33,753 nt of DNA from SAR116 cluster bacterium AG-325-I21. Lineage in GTDB: Bacteria > Pseudomonadota > Alphaproteobacteria > Puniceispirillales > Puniceispirillaceae. Positions 21,310 through 32,135 of the stretch are shown here, piece by piece; the first letter of the stretch is position 1, and each line of letters starts with the position of its first letter. The notes below the pieces were generated by a model. That model ran no database searches, was not told the DNA's origin, and saw only the letters and a program-made list of their open reading frames with translations. The position numbers and the translations under genes are program-made. The DNA is taken from NCBI GenBank assembly GCA_003282865.1, contig QBYK01000018.1, positions 1 to 33,753 on the forward strand, written 5' to 3'.

Positions 21310-22068
21310 TTACGCTGCCCTTCGTGTAAATATCAGATTATCAGTGTCCGATAGTTCCGCCTGATAACAATAGCCGCCAGAACTAAAATCTTTTAAATCT
21401 TCACAGTCGGTCAGCTTATTTTGCATGACAAAACGAGCCATGGCACCGCGAGCCTTTTTTGCATAAAAACTGACAATTTTTGGCGTTCCGTTTTTATTTT
21501 CCATAAAAATTGGCGTGACAACCGGCATTTTTAAACTGGCGAGATCAACCGCACCAAAATATTCTTTGGATGCACAATTGACCAGAAAAGTCGATTTTGT
21601 TTCTTCTGCCTGTTTGTTCAGAGCGTTTGATAATGTTTTACCCCAATATTGATAAAGAGACCGTCCGCGCGTTGTTTCCAGCCTTGTTCCCATTTCCAGC
21701 CGGTATGGTTCAATCTCGTCAAGTGGGCGTAACACTCCATATAATCCAGACAGAATGCGTAGGTGATTTTGCGCCCACGCCATTTCCTCTGGCTCAAAAG
21801 TTGCGGCTTCCAGCCCCTGATAAGTATCACCTGCAAATGCGAGTGCCGCCGCTTTTTTTTCCTGTGAACCAAAACGAGCAAAACGATCAGCATTCAACTG
21901 CGCCAAATTCTGGCTGAGCCCCATCAACGATTTAAACTTATCAACACTCAGACCCCGCATAACACCTGCCAACTCCTGGGCATCCTGCCCAAAAAGGGGT
22001 TGCGTTGGTTCTATATTATCGACGGGCAGCATATTTAATTTCTTTGCAGGCGATACCACAACCAACAT
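21310..22068 (-). CDS. yaaA: Peroxide stress protein YaaA (UPF0246/DUF328)
   Basis: This 252-residue cytosolic protein matches YaaA over its full length and at the usual size. Recognisable segments are the N-terminal VVSPAKKLN (4-12), the central LSGLYGVLRPLDEIEPYRLEMGTRL motif in two parts (105-118 and 119-129), and the C-terminal VSFYAKKARGAMARF. YaaA lowers free iron and protects DNA and proteins during hydrogen peroxide stress in E. coli, where it is controlled by OxyR; it also binds DNA. GGGAG lies upstream of the ATG. I see no OxyR site. Confidence 0.93.
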   Translation of the reverse strand: MLVVVSPAKKLNMLPVDNIEPTQPLFGQDAQELAGVMRGLSVDKFKSLMGLSQNLAQLNADRFARFGSQEKKAAALAFAGDTYQGLEAATFEPEEMAWAQNHLRILSGLYGVLRPLDEIEPYRLEMGTRLETTRGRSLYQYWGKTLSNALNKQAEETKSTFLVNCASKEYFGAVDLASLKMPVVTPIFMENKNGTPKIVSFYAKKARGAMARFVMQNKLTDCEDLKDFSSGGYCYQAELSDTDNLIFTRRAA

Positions 22069-22284: not shown

Positions 22285-23433
22285 TCAAGACAAAGCGAGC
22301 GTTTTAATGATAGCGGGAATATTTTTCTTGAAGTTGAAAAAACCCTTTGTCGCGAATTGCCAGCAGAATAAATCTTGGTGCTGCTTAATGAAATTTAGAT
22401 CAATATTCCACACATCATTAGATCGATTTAAAAAATCTAAGTTTTCTCCAATAAACGGGTAACAAACATCGCACCCGGGCATTTTACCCAATACTTGTCG
22501 GGCTTCCCTGGCATCTAAAACTTCACATTGCGGGTACTTTTGAGCCGCTGATTTAATGAGATTTTGCTTGAACTGAGCAACACTGGGACTAATCGCAATT
22601 TGCCGAGAAGCGTTTGCAAGGCTCATGACGTATATCTTTTTGTAATTTTTTGTTTCATTTCTTTTCAACATGTTAAGATTTGAATCCATGATAAGCAGTG
22701 TTTCAAATTTCTGTTTCGTAGATATCTCATAATCAATTGGTTGGACCACATGAACCTTTTCATCAACCAATGGTAAAGCCCTTTCATTCAGCCTAGCGTT
22801 ATCAAAACGTCCGCCGGTAAATTTACTAATATTTTCAGCCCGAGCGAGATAACATTTTCCCATTGTCTGAATACCAGCAACCCACCGCCAACCAAGGGTA
22901 TTTGACGCAGCATCACCATCGAGCAGATGTTGAAGGAAAAACTGGGCGCCAGCTTGCCAAGGGAGTCCCAATGTAAAAATCCAGATACTTGCAAACCACA
23001 TTCTGGCATGGTTGTGCAAATAATTCGTATTGCGAAGCTCCTGTGCCCAGAAATCAAAGCATTCAATTCCAGTCTTACCATTAATGGCAGCCAGATAATT
23101 TTTATTATCTTTTTGGCTAATTAATTTATCCTGCTGGTCAAACGCTACAAAATCACTCCAAACCGTTGGCCTGTGTTCTAACCACCCCTTCCAGTAGACG
23201 CGCCAAAATACTTCTTGAATAAATTTTTCAGCCCTTTCATGCGTGCTGACACCCAGCGTTGCGCGCACAACGTCATATTCGTCAATCACCCGATGCGAGA
23301 TATATTTAGAGAGCAGAGAAACATTGTGGCGTTTATCTGGCCCAAAATCAAAATTACGAAGGCGAGAGTATTGTTTCAGATTTTGCGCTAAAAACCTGTT
23401 AAGTTCGACCTCAGAGTCTCTAAAAACATCCAT
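22285..23433 (-). CDS. Photolyase/cryptochrome-like FAD-binding protein with reversed domain order
   Basis: Residues 1-230 hold the helical FAD-binding core of the photolyase family: NVSLLSKYISHR (37-48), the region around LRNTNYLHNHARMWFASIW (133-151), the DGDAASNTLGWRW core (172-184) and YLARAENISKF (195-205). In normal photolyases an alpha/beta antenna domain of about 130 residues precedes this core; here it is missing from the N-terminus, while residues 242-382 look like an alpha/beta domain (ETLLIMDSN, KKIYVMSLA, CEVLDAREARQVLG). That suggests a permuted order. DNA repair or light sensing cannot be told apart. Start M1 at 23433 is chosen for GGAAG 4 nt upstream; an ATG at 23451 lacks a binding site. 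Confidence 0.8.
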   Translation of the reverse strand: MDVFRDSEVELNRFLAQNLKQYSRLRNFDFGPDKRHNVSLLSKYISHRVIDEYDVVRATLGVSTHERAEKFIQEVFWRVYWKGWLEHRPTVWSDFVAFDQQDKLISQKDNKNYLAAINGKTGIECFDFWAQELRNTNYLHNHARMWFASIWIFTLGLPWQAGAQFFLQHLLDGDAASNTLGWRWVAGIQTMGKCYLARAENISKFTGGRFDNARLNERALPLVDEKVHVVQPIDYEISTKQKFETLLIMDSNLNMLKRNETKNYKKIYVMSLANASRQIAISPSVAQFKQNLIKSAAQKYPQCEVLDAREARQVLGKMPGCDVCYPFIGENLDFLNRSNDVWNIDLNFIKQHQDLFCWQFATKGFFNFKKNIPAIIKTLALS

Positions 23434-23499
23434 TTCACTTCCATTAATCATTGAAAAATTTCAACTTAAGCCGCTTTGATTTTACTAATCCTTGTATAC

Positions 23500-24474
23500 C
23501 TAATTCTGCGGTTTGCCGGTCTCAGCAAGAATGCCCTCAACAAGGGTTTGCACGCGAAACGCCTCATTCATTGTCGCTAGCCTGTTTGGTTTCGATGCAA
23601 GGTGAAGCGACAGATCATCAAGCTGCGCTTTTAGGCCTGCTGCCCGCGGATCTTTCGGCGGCTCGCGCAAGGAAGTAAAATCCCCACCGTCACTAATCGA
23701 GTCCATATGAAAATTGCTAACACGGCGGCTGGTTTTCGTTCCTTTTACCGTAAATTCTTGTCGGTCAGGCTGAGCACCGCCAACCGTTGCCAGAATAGAC
23801 ACTTCCTGTTTCTTTTCCGATGCTAGCCGCGCCAGAACCGCGGTTTCACACAAAGACGAATCTTTGGGATAAGTGGTATGTGCCGATAAAAGGGAAAGCG
23901 GACCCAAAACACGTTCGCTAAAAAACAGGAAGTGGGAAATGACCTCCCGGGTCATGCCACCCTCGGCGCGAAATCGCAACCAATCGGCATCCCTTTGCCA
24001 AAGACGCGGCCAATCCGGATAAGTGACAACAATATCGACCCCAAGCAAGTCACCCATATCCCCCCTTTTTTTTGCAGCAAGTAAATCGGTCAATGCTATC
24101 CCTGATGCTTGGGTAAAATTCACTGCTACCGGAACATGAAAGGATTTGAGACGTCCCATCATTCTTGCGCTGTCGTCAATATTGACGCCAAACGGCTTCT
24201 CCAGAAACAAGGCTTTGCCCGCTGCGGCTGCCTCAAGAGCGTAGGGCTCGCGAACAGCTGGAGGACAAGCAAGGTAAACCAAGTCAGATTTGCTTATGGC
24301 GTCGCTTGCGCTATCCATAATGTATGATTTTGAGTCCAGTAGCTTTGCCCGTTGACATGCGGATTGATTCGGATCCCATAAATAATCTGGTTCAAAGTTG
24401 TTATGGCTCCTCATATGGGAAAGCATTCGGCGTCCCATTATGCCCAACCCAATTATTGCTACCTTGATCGCCAT
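23500..24474 (-). CDS. Gfo/Idh/MocA-family oxidoreductase
   Basis: This 324-residue NAD(P)-dependent enzyme has the N-terminal Rossmann motif GLGIMG (9-14) and the family signature E92-K93-P94 in LFLEKPFG, where the Lys is catalytic. The C-terminal alpha/beta domain has the expected RAEGGMTREVISHFLFF segment (168-184), with a His in the usual active-site position. Members oxidise or reduce sugars, inositols or related alcohols; the substrate is unknown. GAGGAG stands 5 nt before the ATG. It precedes the photolyase-like gene by about 66 nt in the same direction. Confidence 0.85.
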   Translation of the reverse strand: MAIKVAIIGLGIMGRRMLSHMRSHNNFEPDYLWDPNQSACQRAKLLDSKSYIMDSASDAISKSDLVYLACPPAVREPYALEAAAAGKALFLEKPFGVNIDDSARMMGRLKSFHVPVAVNFTQASGIALTDLLAAKKRGDMGDLLGVDIVVTYPDWPRLWQRDADWLRFRAEGGMTREVISHFLFFSERVLGPLSLLSAHTTYPKDSSLCETAVLARLASEKKQEVSILATVGGAQPDRQEFTVKGTKTSRRVSNFHMDSISDGGDFTSLREPPKDPRAAGLKAQLDDLSLHLASKPNRLATMNEAFRVQTLVEGILAETGKPQN

Positions 24475-25330: not shown

Positions 25331-25672
25331 TCACAATTTTACAGGATGGCCATGCGGGGTCTGAATGTAAGCATCAATCCATTGCGCCTTTAGAGCGTCC
25401 AACGTTTCAGGATCAACAATCCCTTTTTCCTGCATTACCTCAATGAGAGTTTGCAACCAAATCAGATAATAATCTTCGCTGCCATCAAGTCCCTGCCGGC
25501 CATCATAAATAGCCATATTACTTCTCGCACCAGCCAGATTTTTGCCAAAGCGTCCTGACCATTCTGCCCAGCAAAAATGCCCCGCCTCGTTGAGATGCAC
25601 TGCAAGGGCAAATACTTCAGCATGCCACGGTGCGGCAAAAGCCTGCTCTGGTTCTCGCTCTGCACTTATCAT
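25331..25672 (-). CDS. Nitrile hydratase accessory protein
   Basis: This 113-residue protein resembles the N-terminal helical part of the nitrile hydratase beta subunit: FAAPWHAEVFALAVHLNEAG (12-31) and HFCWAEWSGRFG (32-43), then YYLIWLQTLIEVMQEKG. Accessory proteins of this kind deliver cobalt to, and help oxidise the ligands of, the alpha subunit by subunit exchange. The ATG overlaps the beta-subunit stop as ATGA, so the two are translationally coupled. The order alpha, beta, accessory is the usual one for cobalt enzymes. Confidence 0.88.
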   Translation of the reverse strand: MISAEREPEQAFAAPWHAEVFALAVHLNEAGHFCWAEWSGRFGKNLAGARSNMAIYDGRQGLDGSEDYYLIWLQTLIEVMQEKGIVDPETLDALKAQWIDAYIQTPHGHPVKL

Positions 25673-26349
25673 AGTACCGGCTCAAGATAGCTTTCCCAGC
25701 AATCAACAATGACACTGTCACCCCTCCCCCCGGTATGCGGCCACAACTCGATACTGGAAAACTCTACTGAATACAGAGGCTCGGGATGTTCGCCAAGAAA
25801 ATGCGCGTTGCTGTTTGGCAGGACATGATGCCCATGATGGAATAATATGCTTCCAGTTTTTCCAGCTGCATAATACGGTAATCTGGTGTGGCCTGGCTTC
25901 TGCAGCATCGTATCAGATGGCTGTTTGGTCTGCACAATTTGTCCCAACGAAAATGCGGGCTCGGCCGTCGCCGGGCGTGATGCTCGTGACCCCGTTGCCA
26001 GCATCGCTTGAACCTCGCTGGCTTTAAGTGCCTTTTTATATAGCGGTTGCTGCGGGCCGTCATAAGCACCGTTGGCAATTTCATCACGCGATATAAACCC
26101 GTTTGCTACAAAAAGATTGGTCAGAGCTGCCAGCCATTTTTCATAATAGGTAAACGATTGGTAATCACTCTTTGGCAGTGTTTCACGCCAGAACCGAGAT
26201 GTATCAATGCTCCATTTTCCCATTGCACCCCCGGCCACGGTAAGACCCAGAACGCGTTTATGCCATGGTTGATCGAAAATTGGATCGCCTGGCCTGTCAG
26301 GGGTGACTCGTCCTGCTGGATCTCCCCCAATATCGTGATATGACTTCAT
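25669..26349 (-). CDS. nthB: Nitrile hydratase subunit beta
   Basis: This 226-residue subunit begins MKSYHDIGG, the family's normal start, and has the helical part (WHKRVLGLTVAGGAMGKW, FTYYEKWLAALTNLF) followed by a C-terminal SH3-like barrel (HTRLPYYAAGKTGSIL, PLYSVEF, then ELWP). The start at 26349 is chosen because GGGGG lies just upstream; the open frame reaches 22 codons further but those residues are unlike the family. It pairs with the alpha subunit to hydrate nitriles to amides in the cytoplasm. It starts 46 nt after the alpha gene and overlaps the accessory gene by 4 bp. Confidence 0.93.
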   Translation of the reverse strand: MKSYHDIGGDPAGRVTPDRPGDPIFDQPWHKRVLGLTVAGGAMGKWSIDTSRFWRETLPKSDYQSFTYYEKWLAALTNLFVANGFISRDEIANGAYDGPQQPLYKKALKASEVQAMLATGSRASRPATAEPAFSLGQIVQTKQPSDTMLQKPGHTRLPYYAAGKTGSILFHHGHHVLPNSNAHFLGEHPEPLYSVEFSSIELWPHTGGRGDSVIVDCWESYLEPVL

Positions 26350-26395
26350 CGCTACCCCCTTTCTATCACTCGACGGGACGATTTGCGGTGGGGGC

Positions 26396-27001
26396 TTACG
26401 GCAAACCAGCACCAATCATTGAATTGCGACTCACCCAGCCCACCAGGTCGGCTTGATCAAGGCCGAAACTGGCTTTGGGCTGCATTGGCAGAACTAGATA
26501 ACGGATTTCTGCGGTTGAGTCCCAAACGCGGATCTTTTGGTCTTGCGGGATGATTATACCAAATTCTGACAATACTTCTCTCGGTTCACTCACAGCCCGG
26601 CTACGATAAGCATCAGATTTATACCATGCTGGCGGCACCCCAAGTACCGGCCATGGATAACAGCTACACAAGGTACAAACGACCAGATTGTGGCATGCGG
26701 GTGTGTTTTCTACCACAACAATATGCTCTCCCTGGCGCCCGCCAAACCCCATTTCAGCCAAAATGCCATCGGTATTATTTACCAGTTGTTTTTTAAATTC
26801 AGGGTCATTCCAAGCGCGTGCAATCAGGCTAGCCCCGATGTGCGGACCAATGTGATGCTCGTATTGATCAATGATTGCGTCAACGGCAGCCGGATCAACC
26901 AATCCTTTGCGGACCAATAATGTTTCAAGCGCCTTAACCCGCAATGCTGGCTCAGGGGGTAAAAGGGAGTGGGCGTGATCGTCGTGGTGATCGTGTGGCA
27001 T
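26396..27001 (-). CDS. nthA: Nitrile hydratase subunit alpha, cobalt type
   Basis: This 201-residue catalytic subunit contains the claw-setting motif V-C109-T-L-C112-S-C114-Y-P-W-P, in which the three Cys and backbone amides hold the metal and two Cys are oxidised. Thr after the first Cys marks the cobalt class; iron enzymes have Ser. The N-terminus is unusually His-rich (MPHDHHDDHAH), which could bind metal. It turns nitriles into amides. No amidase or nitrilase is adjacent to use the product, and no cobalt transporter either. No strong ribosome-binding site is seen before the ATG. The promoter must lie in the divergent region at 27002-27199. Confidence 0.93.
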   Translation of the reverse strand: MPHDHHDDHAHSLLPPEPALRVKALETLLVRKGLVDPAAVDAIIDQYEHHIGPHIGASLIARAWNDPEFKKQLVNNTDGILAEMGFGGRQGEHIVVVENTPACHNLVVCTLCSCYPWPVLGVPPAWYKSDAYRSRAVSEPREVLSEFGIIIPQDQKIRVWDSTAEIRYLVLPMQPKASFGLDQADLVGWVSRNSMIGAGLP

Positions 27002-30785: not shown

Positions 30786-32135
30786 TTATTTGGGCTGTTT
30801 TATTTGTTCGTCAGTTGTTCTTTTAGCCTTGATGGCTTTTGTAAATTGTCGCCCCGTGCGCAGCACATTTGACCCCATTTTTATATGCAACCGATCAACC
30901 GCCGCCTCCAAGCGATTACGTCTATTGTCCTCGCCTCCATCAAGATCAAACAAGCGCGCCTCATATGCTTCACCTAAATGATTAACTCCTATTCCCAACA
31001 ATCTAAATTTATTATTATTTCCTACTTCATTTATCAAGAGATCACGGCCAATATCAAACAATTGGTATGCCTTATCAATCCGGCTTGGCAGGGACCGGCT
31101 TCGGGTTATCACACGGTGATTTGCCCGCTTCAATTTCAAAGTCACAGTTCCACCTGCAATGCCTTTGGCTTTCAGACGCGATGACAGTTTAAGGCATAAG
31201 GCCTCCAATTCGGCTTCCAATGATTTAAGATCTGACAGATCTTGCGAAAAAGTAGTCTCGTTCGAAACAGATTTTGCCTCCCGGTCAGCAACCACTGGCC
31301 TTGGGTCATTGCCTTTTGCCAAATTCATCACCATCATGGTTTGGCTCCCAAGGACCGTCGAGATTCTTTTCACCTTCCCTTTTGCAAGATCAGCACAGGT
31401 AAAAACACCAATTCTGTTTAGCCGCATAACTGCCGATTGGCCAATACCATACAAAACCGATATCGGCTGCGGGGCAAGCCATGCCTCGGCTTCAGTCGAG
31501 CCTATGACGAAAAAACCATCTGGCTTGTCACGGTCAGATGCCATTTTTGCCAAAGATTTAGTACTACTTAAACCAATCGAAACTGTAATACCGATGTCAC
31601 GCTTGATATCTTGCTGTAGGCGGTGCAATGCTTCCGCCGGGGTGGCCCTATGCAGTTTTTGCGTTCCCGCAAGATCAAGGAAAGCCTCATCAATCGAAAG
31701 CGGCTGTACGAGCGGGGTTAGCGAAAGCATTTTTTCGCGCACTTGCTGCCCAATTTCGACATAATGCGCCATTCGCGGTCGAATAACCACAGCATCAGGG
31801 CATTTTTTCAGAGCCTGCCAGGCTGGCATTGCAGATCGCACACCAAACTGGCGAGCAATGTAGCATGCCGCTGCAACAACCCCTCGATCACCACCGCCTA
31901 CGATCACAGGCTTACTGGCAAGGTCTGGGTTGTCTCGCTTCTCGATCGACGCATAAAAAGCATCACAATCTACATGTGCGATGGTGAGAGAAAACAAATC
32001 TGGATGAGCACGTATATTAAAAGAATGACAAGACGGGCATGTATCTATCCGAGTTAAGCTGCCCACATGCCCTGTTGCGCCGCAATCACGACACAGCATG
32101 GCATATGAGGCCGCAGCTTCCTGAGTGCCTACCAT
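30786..32135 (-). CDS. dinB: DNA polymerase IV (DinB), with N-terminal zinc finger
   Basis: This 449-residue Y-family polymerase has the metal-binding Asp in HVDCDAFYASIE (54-65) and the catalytic S147-I-D149-E150 motif, followed by thumb and little-finger domains. It copies past damaged bases at the cost of fidelity. The first 45 residues add a CxxC-x14-CxxC zinc-ribbon (C15, C18, C33, C36) not present in E. coli DinB but seen in alphaproteobacterial forms. No LexA box was recognised upstream. It lies 71 nt downstream of the flavin oxidoreductase gene in the same direction and may be cotranscribed with it. Confidence 0.93.
   Translation of the reverse strand: MVGTQEAAASYAMLCRDCGATGHVGSLTRIDTCPSCHSFNIRAHPDLFSLTIAHVDCDAFYASIEKRDNPDLASKPVIVGGGDRGVVAAACYIARQFGVRSAMPAWQALKKCPDAVVIRPRMAHYVEIGQQVREKMLSLTPLVQPLSIDEAFLDLAGTQKLHRATPAEALHRLQQDIKRDIGITVSIGLSSTKSLAKMASDRDKPDGFFVIGSTEAEAWLAPQPISVLYGIGQSAVMRLNRIGVFTCADLAKGKVKRISTVLGSQTMMVMNLAKGNDPRPVVADREAKSVSNETTFSQDLSDLKSLEAELEALCLKLSSRLKAKGIAGGTVTLKLKRANHRVITRSRSLPSRIDKAYQLFDIGRDLLINEVGNNNKFRLLGIGVNHLGEAYEARLFDLDGGEDNRRNRLEAAVDRLHIKMGSNVLRTGRQFTKAIKAKRTTDEQIKQPK

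Follow-up and report, generated by a model that had tools for sequence, protein, structure and literature searches.

The window (the whole 33,753-nucleotide stretch analysed, from contig QBYK01000018.1 of SAR116 cluster bacterium AG-325-I21) carries on its minus strand an ORF of 388 codons, counted from the first ATG, whose product has a photolyase-like FAD domain first and an alpha/beta domain second (Table 1). The first-pass annotation had drawn this gene from 22285 to 23433. Position 23433 is an in-frame Met, residue 7 of the 388-aa ORF, and either it or the first ATG may be the true start; counted from the first ATG, the ORF spans 22285-23451. The gene for the peroxide stress protein YaaA lies downstream on the same strand. 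No gene neighbourhood common to all loci of the family was found; photolyase neighbours recur in some of them. Elsewhere in the window, three minus-strand ORFs at 25331-27001 resemble nitrile hydratase subunits (the metal motif VCTLCSCYPW lies in 26396-27001), and 30786-32135 encodes a Y-family DNA polymerase (IMS/IMS_C) with a short, zinc-finger-like N-terminal Cys motif (CRDCG...CPSC).

Table 1. Features of the inverted photolyase gene, its neighbours and its FAD-first relatives (positions are those of the window unless a locus is named).
Feature	Position	Strand	Basis
FAD-first (inverted-order) photolyase, complete gene, 388 aa, predicted NewPHL type	22285..23451	-	ORF; FAD_binding_7 E 4.9e-21; 80 homologous loci
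N-terminal helical FAD / DNA-lesion domain, residues 9-235	22747..23427	-	AF2 helices 9-211; VIA-align Z 13-16
KFIQEVFWRVYWKGW, residues 76-90, CPD pocket E80 and W83 (= E. coli E274, W277)	23182..23226	-	ungapped phmmer alignment to 1dnp
Core FAD/catalytic motif, residues 146-190	22882..23016	-	alignment to 1dnp; residues listed in the text invariant 48/48
Inter-domain linker, about residues 236-245	22717..22746	-	no helix or strand in the model between 211 and 251
C-terminal alpha/beta domain, residues 246-388, probable relocated photolyase alpha/beta domain ("Z-domain" of NewPHL/Phr7)	22288..22716	-	AF2, VIA-align, transitive profiles
Tail motif, residues 360-379 (D360...G370-F-F372...I378-P379)	22315..22374	-	conservation counts
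Neighbours: YaaA downstream, Gfo/Idh/MocA oxidoreductase upstream	21310-22068 and 23500-24474	same as photolyase gene	
Split FAD + alpha/beta gene pairs, SPL/Phr4-like	L141 708-2914; L142 1471-2603; L143 1447-3317; L144 1461-2682		
Deinococcus plasmid fused FAD-first photolyases, 456-472 aa	L152 1875-3242; L153 1845-3215; L154 1896-3311		

The photolyase-like FAD core that was first noticed in the translation is borne out by Pfam: FAD_binding_7, the sole Pfam family found in the protein, matches residues 77-209 with 75.5 bits against a cut-off of 27 (E 4.9e-21), far beyond chance, the match ending at profile position 133 of 203. The NCBIfam photolyase models match the FAD half alone and fall far under their cut-offs (the Cry-DASH model TIGR02765 gives 54 bits against 317), and a sequence comparison with solved structures comes closest with class III and class I photolyases, likewise over the FAD half only. 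A full-length AlphaFold2 model (48 family members as alignment; mean pLDDT 93.5, pTM 0.92) runs the helical FAD part from approximately residue 9, not approximately 35 as had been proposed, to approximately 211-235, and VIA-align matches its residues 1-231 to the FAD domains of photolyases at Z 13-16. The strand/helix alternation read from the C-terminal sequence is present in the model as five strands alternating with helices over residues 251-386.

Active-site residues were mapped by ungapped phmmer alignment to E. coli photolyase (1dnp), and only class I FAD and CPD residues mappable there were counted. All of these but the distal tryptophan (E274, W277, N341, R344, M345, W359, D372, D374, N378, W382 and W384) are invariant in 48 of 48 homologues. 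The first two are E80 and W83 here; the core motif holds N147, R150, M151, W165 (W359), D178, D180, N184 (N378, which adjoins flavin N5), W188 (W382) and W190 (W384). The FAD residues Y28, R32, S45, S48, D178, D180 and N184 are conserved across the family. Two members of the class I Trp triad W306-W359-W382 are kept, as W165 and W188. An equivalent of the distal W306 is absent (at residue 112 this protein has S, and the family chiefly D, N, S or E), and the third electron donor must therefore differ; the conserved W135, W152, W157 and Y144 are candidates. The family has no four-Cys set of the Fe-S type, C131 alone being near-invariant (45/48).

Textbook photolyases place the antenna-type alpha/beta domain at the N-terminus and the helical FAD domain after it. 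The SAR116 chain begins with the FAD domain, and PF00875 has no match anywhere in it. The search for homologues with the same order, which the first-pass annotation had called for, returned it in abundance: a genome scan left 80 homologous loci, from SAR116, SAR86, Pelagibacterales, Rhodobacteraceae and others, and the full FAD-first order is complete in 77 of them, the exceptions being one contig-truncated ORF, one interrupted ORF and one with a late-starting model match. The closest of the 80 is in a SAR116 single-cell genome (93%), and full-length matches occur in 16 of 190 sampled genomes of the class. In the FAD-domain tree the family forms its own clade (support 99/98); the placement of the FeS-BCPs in that tree, on a very long branch, was left unused. 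No relative was found on viral contigs. In RefSeq such proteins go by the label "FAD-binding domain-containing protein". Raw sequence thus confirms a natural swap in the order of the two photolyase domains, one shared widely among marine bacteria.

The class is already known. It was published in 2020 as NewPHL, and the SAR116 protein is read, on matching descriptions and taxa, as an ordinary member of it. The closest known systems are NewPHL itself (Emmerich et al. 2020, NAR 48:12845; D. shibae A8LJA9, M. mesophilicum M7YZC8) and Prochlorococcus Phr7. According to Haney et al. 2022 (PMC9426592), Phr7 consists of an N-terminal FAD domain and a C-terminal Z-domain, is without Fe-S cysteines and lies nearest to the reversed-order Phr4/Phr6; the same paper credits Emmerich et al. 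2020 with identifying the Phr7-type proteins of D. shibae and M. mesophilicum as CPD photolyases acting on single-stranded DNA. A 2026 paper (PMC13274461) describes NewPHLs as single-strand CPD photolyases of inverted domain topology. The SAR116 protein has the same N-terminal FAD domain, the same atypical, short photolyase (Z) domain in second place, no Fe-S cysteines, and an alphaproteobacterial and marine spread; Rhodobacterales, sphingomonad and Rhodospirillaceae homologues sit in its family, and these are groups of the published NewPHLs. In the features compared, the SAR116-type copy shows no difference from them.

Phr4/Phr5 and Phr6 (PMC9426592) and SPL (Xu et al. 2021) also have the FAD domain first and the alpha/beta domain second, in a separate gene or fused, but Fe-S cysteines are present in many of them and their alpha/beta domain is easier to recognise, whereas the SAR116 protein lacks such cysteines and its second domain has diverged. 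The cysteine set in question, which follows the FAD motif in only some SPLs (CxxCP...CP in L141 and L143), is absent from the SAR116 protein's family. Class I CPD photolyases (E. coli PhrB, 1dnp; Anacystis, 1owl) share the FAD core, the CPD pocket, N378/D372/D374 and two of three triad Trp, but their domain order is the reverse, the distal Trp is absent from the SAR116 protein and it has no recognisable antenna motif. The FeS-BCP or prokaryotic (6-4) photolyases (PhrB, 4dja) contribute, in their N-terminal alpha/beta domain, the best-ranked structural match of the C-terminal domain; they too differ in domain order, the SAR116 protein has no Fe-S cluster, and its FAD core is nearer class I, whose members score 51-99 bits with the family profile against -1 to 21 for FeS-BCP.

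The C-terminal domain is the harder half to place. Modelled alone, the last 151 residues reach a pLDDT of 92. No Pfam family recurs above noise among 48 C-terminal domains, a PDB profile search with the domain finds no relative, and the corresponding search with the whole family matches FAD domains only, so that no solved structure was found for this half of the protein. In VIA-align the top row for the lone domain is the N-terminal domain of PhrB (4dja; Z 7.6, 136 residues, rmsd 3.8 Å), and the N-terminal domain of CryB is the second top-ranked photolyase (Z 7.3); both alignments run in sequential order, with the same strand order, over the whole domain. Can2 (Z 6.8), UspE (Z 6.4) and other HUP-like and Rossmann folds trail at 6-6.8, and this ranking alone is not decisive, because PhrB leads Can2 by less than one Z unit and UspE by 1.2. 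The structural comparison proposed in the first-pass annotation does put photolyase N-terminal domains on top, by a small margin over similar folds. Foldseek alone puts CoaD (phosphopantetheine adenylyltransferase) first, with E about 1e-3.

Sequence supplies a further, transitive link. Compared directly, profile against profile, the C-terminal domain does not match class I antenna domains, and against FeS-BCP domains it gives a weak colinear match (13%, E 0.002). An apparent HMM match between this region and the antenna domain of a class I photolyase (L145) scored below zero and was discarded. FAD-first relatives span the gap. In the four alphaproteobacterial loci that make up the split-pair sample (L141-L144), the FAD core stands alone and is followed directly, on the same strand, by an ORF of ~140 aa that overlaps the end of the FAD ORF (4/4). 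The profile built from these downstream ORFs (A3) hits the alpha/beta domains of class I photolyases at 94.7% (E 6e-8, 129 columns). SPLs reportedly lack a photolyase alpha/beta domain; because such an ORF overlaps the FAD ORF end in all four loci, they may be two-subunit enzymes, by analogy with what has been proposed for cyanobacterial phr4/phr5. Three Deinococcus plasmid proteins (L152-L154) have the two parts fused, with a FAD core at ~98-218 and an alpha/beta domain at ~300-434, on which A3 scores 69-76 bits; PF00875 matches two of the three at E 7e-4 to 1e-3, below Pfam's own cut-off. With their Fe-S-type cysteines and recognisable C-terminal alpha/beta domain these proteins are Phr6-like. 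An unannotated ORF on a Persicobacter (Bacteroidota) plasmid (L156 1857-3069) encodes a FAD core and, after it, a short domain of alpha/beta-like character, and is perhaps an intermediate between Phr6 and NewPHL.

A bridge profile was built from the alpha/beta domains of eight of these FAD-first relatives: four from split pairs, three from Deinococcus and one from Persicobacter. In hhalign it matches class I antenna domains at 96.6% (E 5e-10, 141 columns) and the family's C-terminal domain at 70-89% (E 4e-5 to 2e-6, 108-127 columns), the latter match being colinear from strand 1 towards the tail. Leave-one-out profiles keep the colinear match at 35-91%; removal of pairs or triples weakens it to 12-59%. 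Reversed-alignment controls fail, scoring 10-12, and comparison (unrelated) families score at most 23.7 against 34-41 for the bridge match, one artefactual cluster aside: the neighbour cluster L005|5 (SDR) gave a score of 131 against each query, over 11-35 columns, and was ignored as an alignment artefact.

The C-terminal domain could still be an unrelated HUP/Rossmann-type domain (CoaD-, Usp- or CARF-like) that was fused to a photolyase FAD core and resembles an antenna domain in no deeper sense; the Foldseek rows for CoaD, the proximity of Can2 to PhrB and the failed direct profile comparison would all suit it. It is nonetheless improbable, since PhrB and CryB come first in VIA-align, in order and over the whole domain, the FAD-first relatives provide a sequence bridge to antenna domains, and the related split SPL pairs have the photolyase alpha/beta domain directly downstream. 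The colinear bridge and the structural rank together argue that the domain moved as a whole, and there is good but not overwhelming support for a relocated photolyase alpha/beta domain of unchanged internal order. The moved antenna-type domain postulated from the translation gains support from this profile chain and from the top structural rows; the natural circular permutation postulated with it holds for the order of the domains and not within the domain, where the strands keep their order. The transitive link, which joins the poorly conserved NewPHL C-terminal domain to the classical antenna domain, is what this analysis adds, together with a testable scheme for the origin of the reversed order: a FAD and alpha/beta gene pair, later fused, then reduced.

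With high confidence, then, the gene is read as a NewPHL-type photolyase, its N-terminal domain a predicted FAD-binding catalytic domain and its C-terminal domain homologous to the N-terminal domain of ordinary photolyases. It most likely encodes a blue-light CPD photolyase for single-stranded DNA in which the C-terminal domain covers the flavin site. FAD binding, CPD repair, single-strand preference and the sealing role we infer for the SAR116 protein from conserved residues and from the published NewPHLs, and the mechanism is drawn from the same two sources. Photoreduction of the flavin would run through W188, W165 and a non-canonical third donor; the pocket of E80, W83, N147, R150, M151 and W190 would receive a CPD flipped out of single-stranded DNA; blue-light-excited FADH- would donate an electron to the dimer, which would split and return it. 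Most likely the moved alpha/beta domain uses its conserved tail to pack against the FAD half and closes the flavin site, an antenna function not being its (main) role.

That tail, with the consensus RxxDxxCWPxAxKGFFxFKxxIP, is the most conserved stretch of the C-terminal domain (D360, G370 and F372 are invariant, I378 and P379 at least 90% conserved), and possibly contacts the FAD half. The domain is homologous to antenna-binding domains and might have kept an antenna function, with a bound second chromophore that feeds energy to the FAD. This is unlikely: beyond the tail and a few positions the domain is poorly conserved, just three of its columns being invariant across 48 sequences, which is not the pattern of a ligand pocket that selection preserves, and a packing or lid role fits such tail-focused conservation better; in the original description of NewPHL, the C-terminal domain is reported to seal the FAD site. 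There is a slim chance that the relocated domain still has a binding site, unlike the known antenna pockets, for a light-harvesting or some other ligand, in which case the move of the domain would have made a new energy-transfer geometry, beyond a lid. That the protein is a signalling, cryptochrome-like flavoprotein is very improbable, for although the distal triad Trp is missing (residue 112 unconserved) and the genome has other photolyases, the CPD-pocket residues E80, W83, N147, R150, M151 and W190 are invariant in 48/48, and published members of the matching class repair CPDs (PMC9426592, PMC13274461).

Photorepair genes other than that of the NewPHL-type photolyase are present in the same genome. 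On contig C7 (L122 23-3012) a class I photolyase gene overlaps a downstream FeS-BCP gene by 4 bases, and the two apparently form a photorepair operon. Contig C30 (L002 1372-2937) carries a third photolyase/cryptochrome-like gene, of 521 aa, which scores 191 of the 317 bits of the DASH cut-off; up to nine loci have, close to the inverted photolyase gene, relatives that apparently belong to this family.
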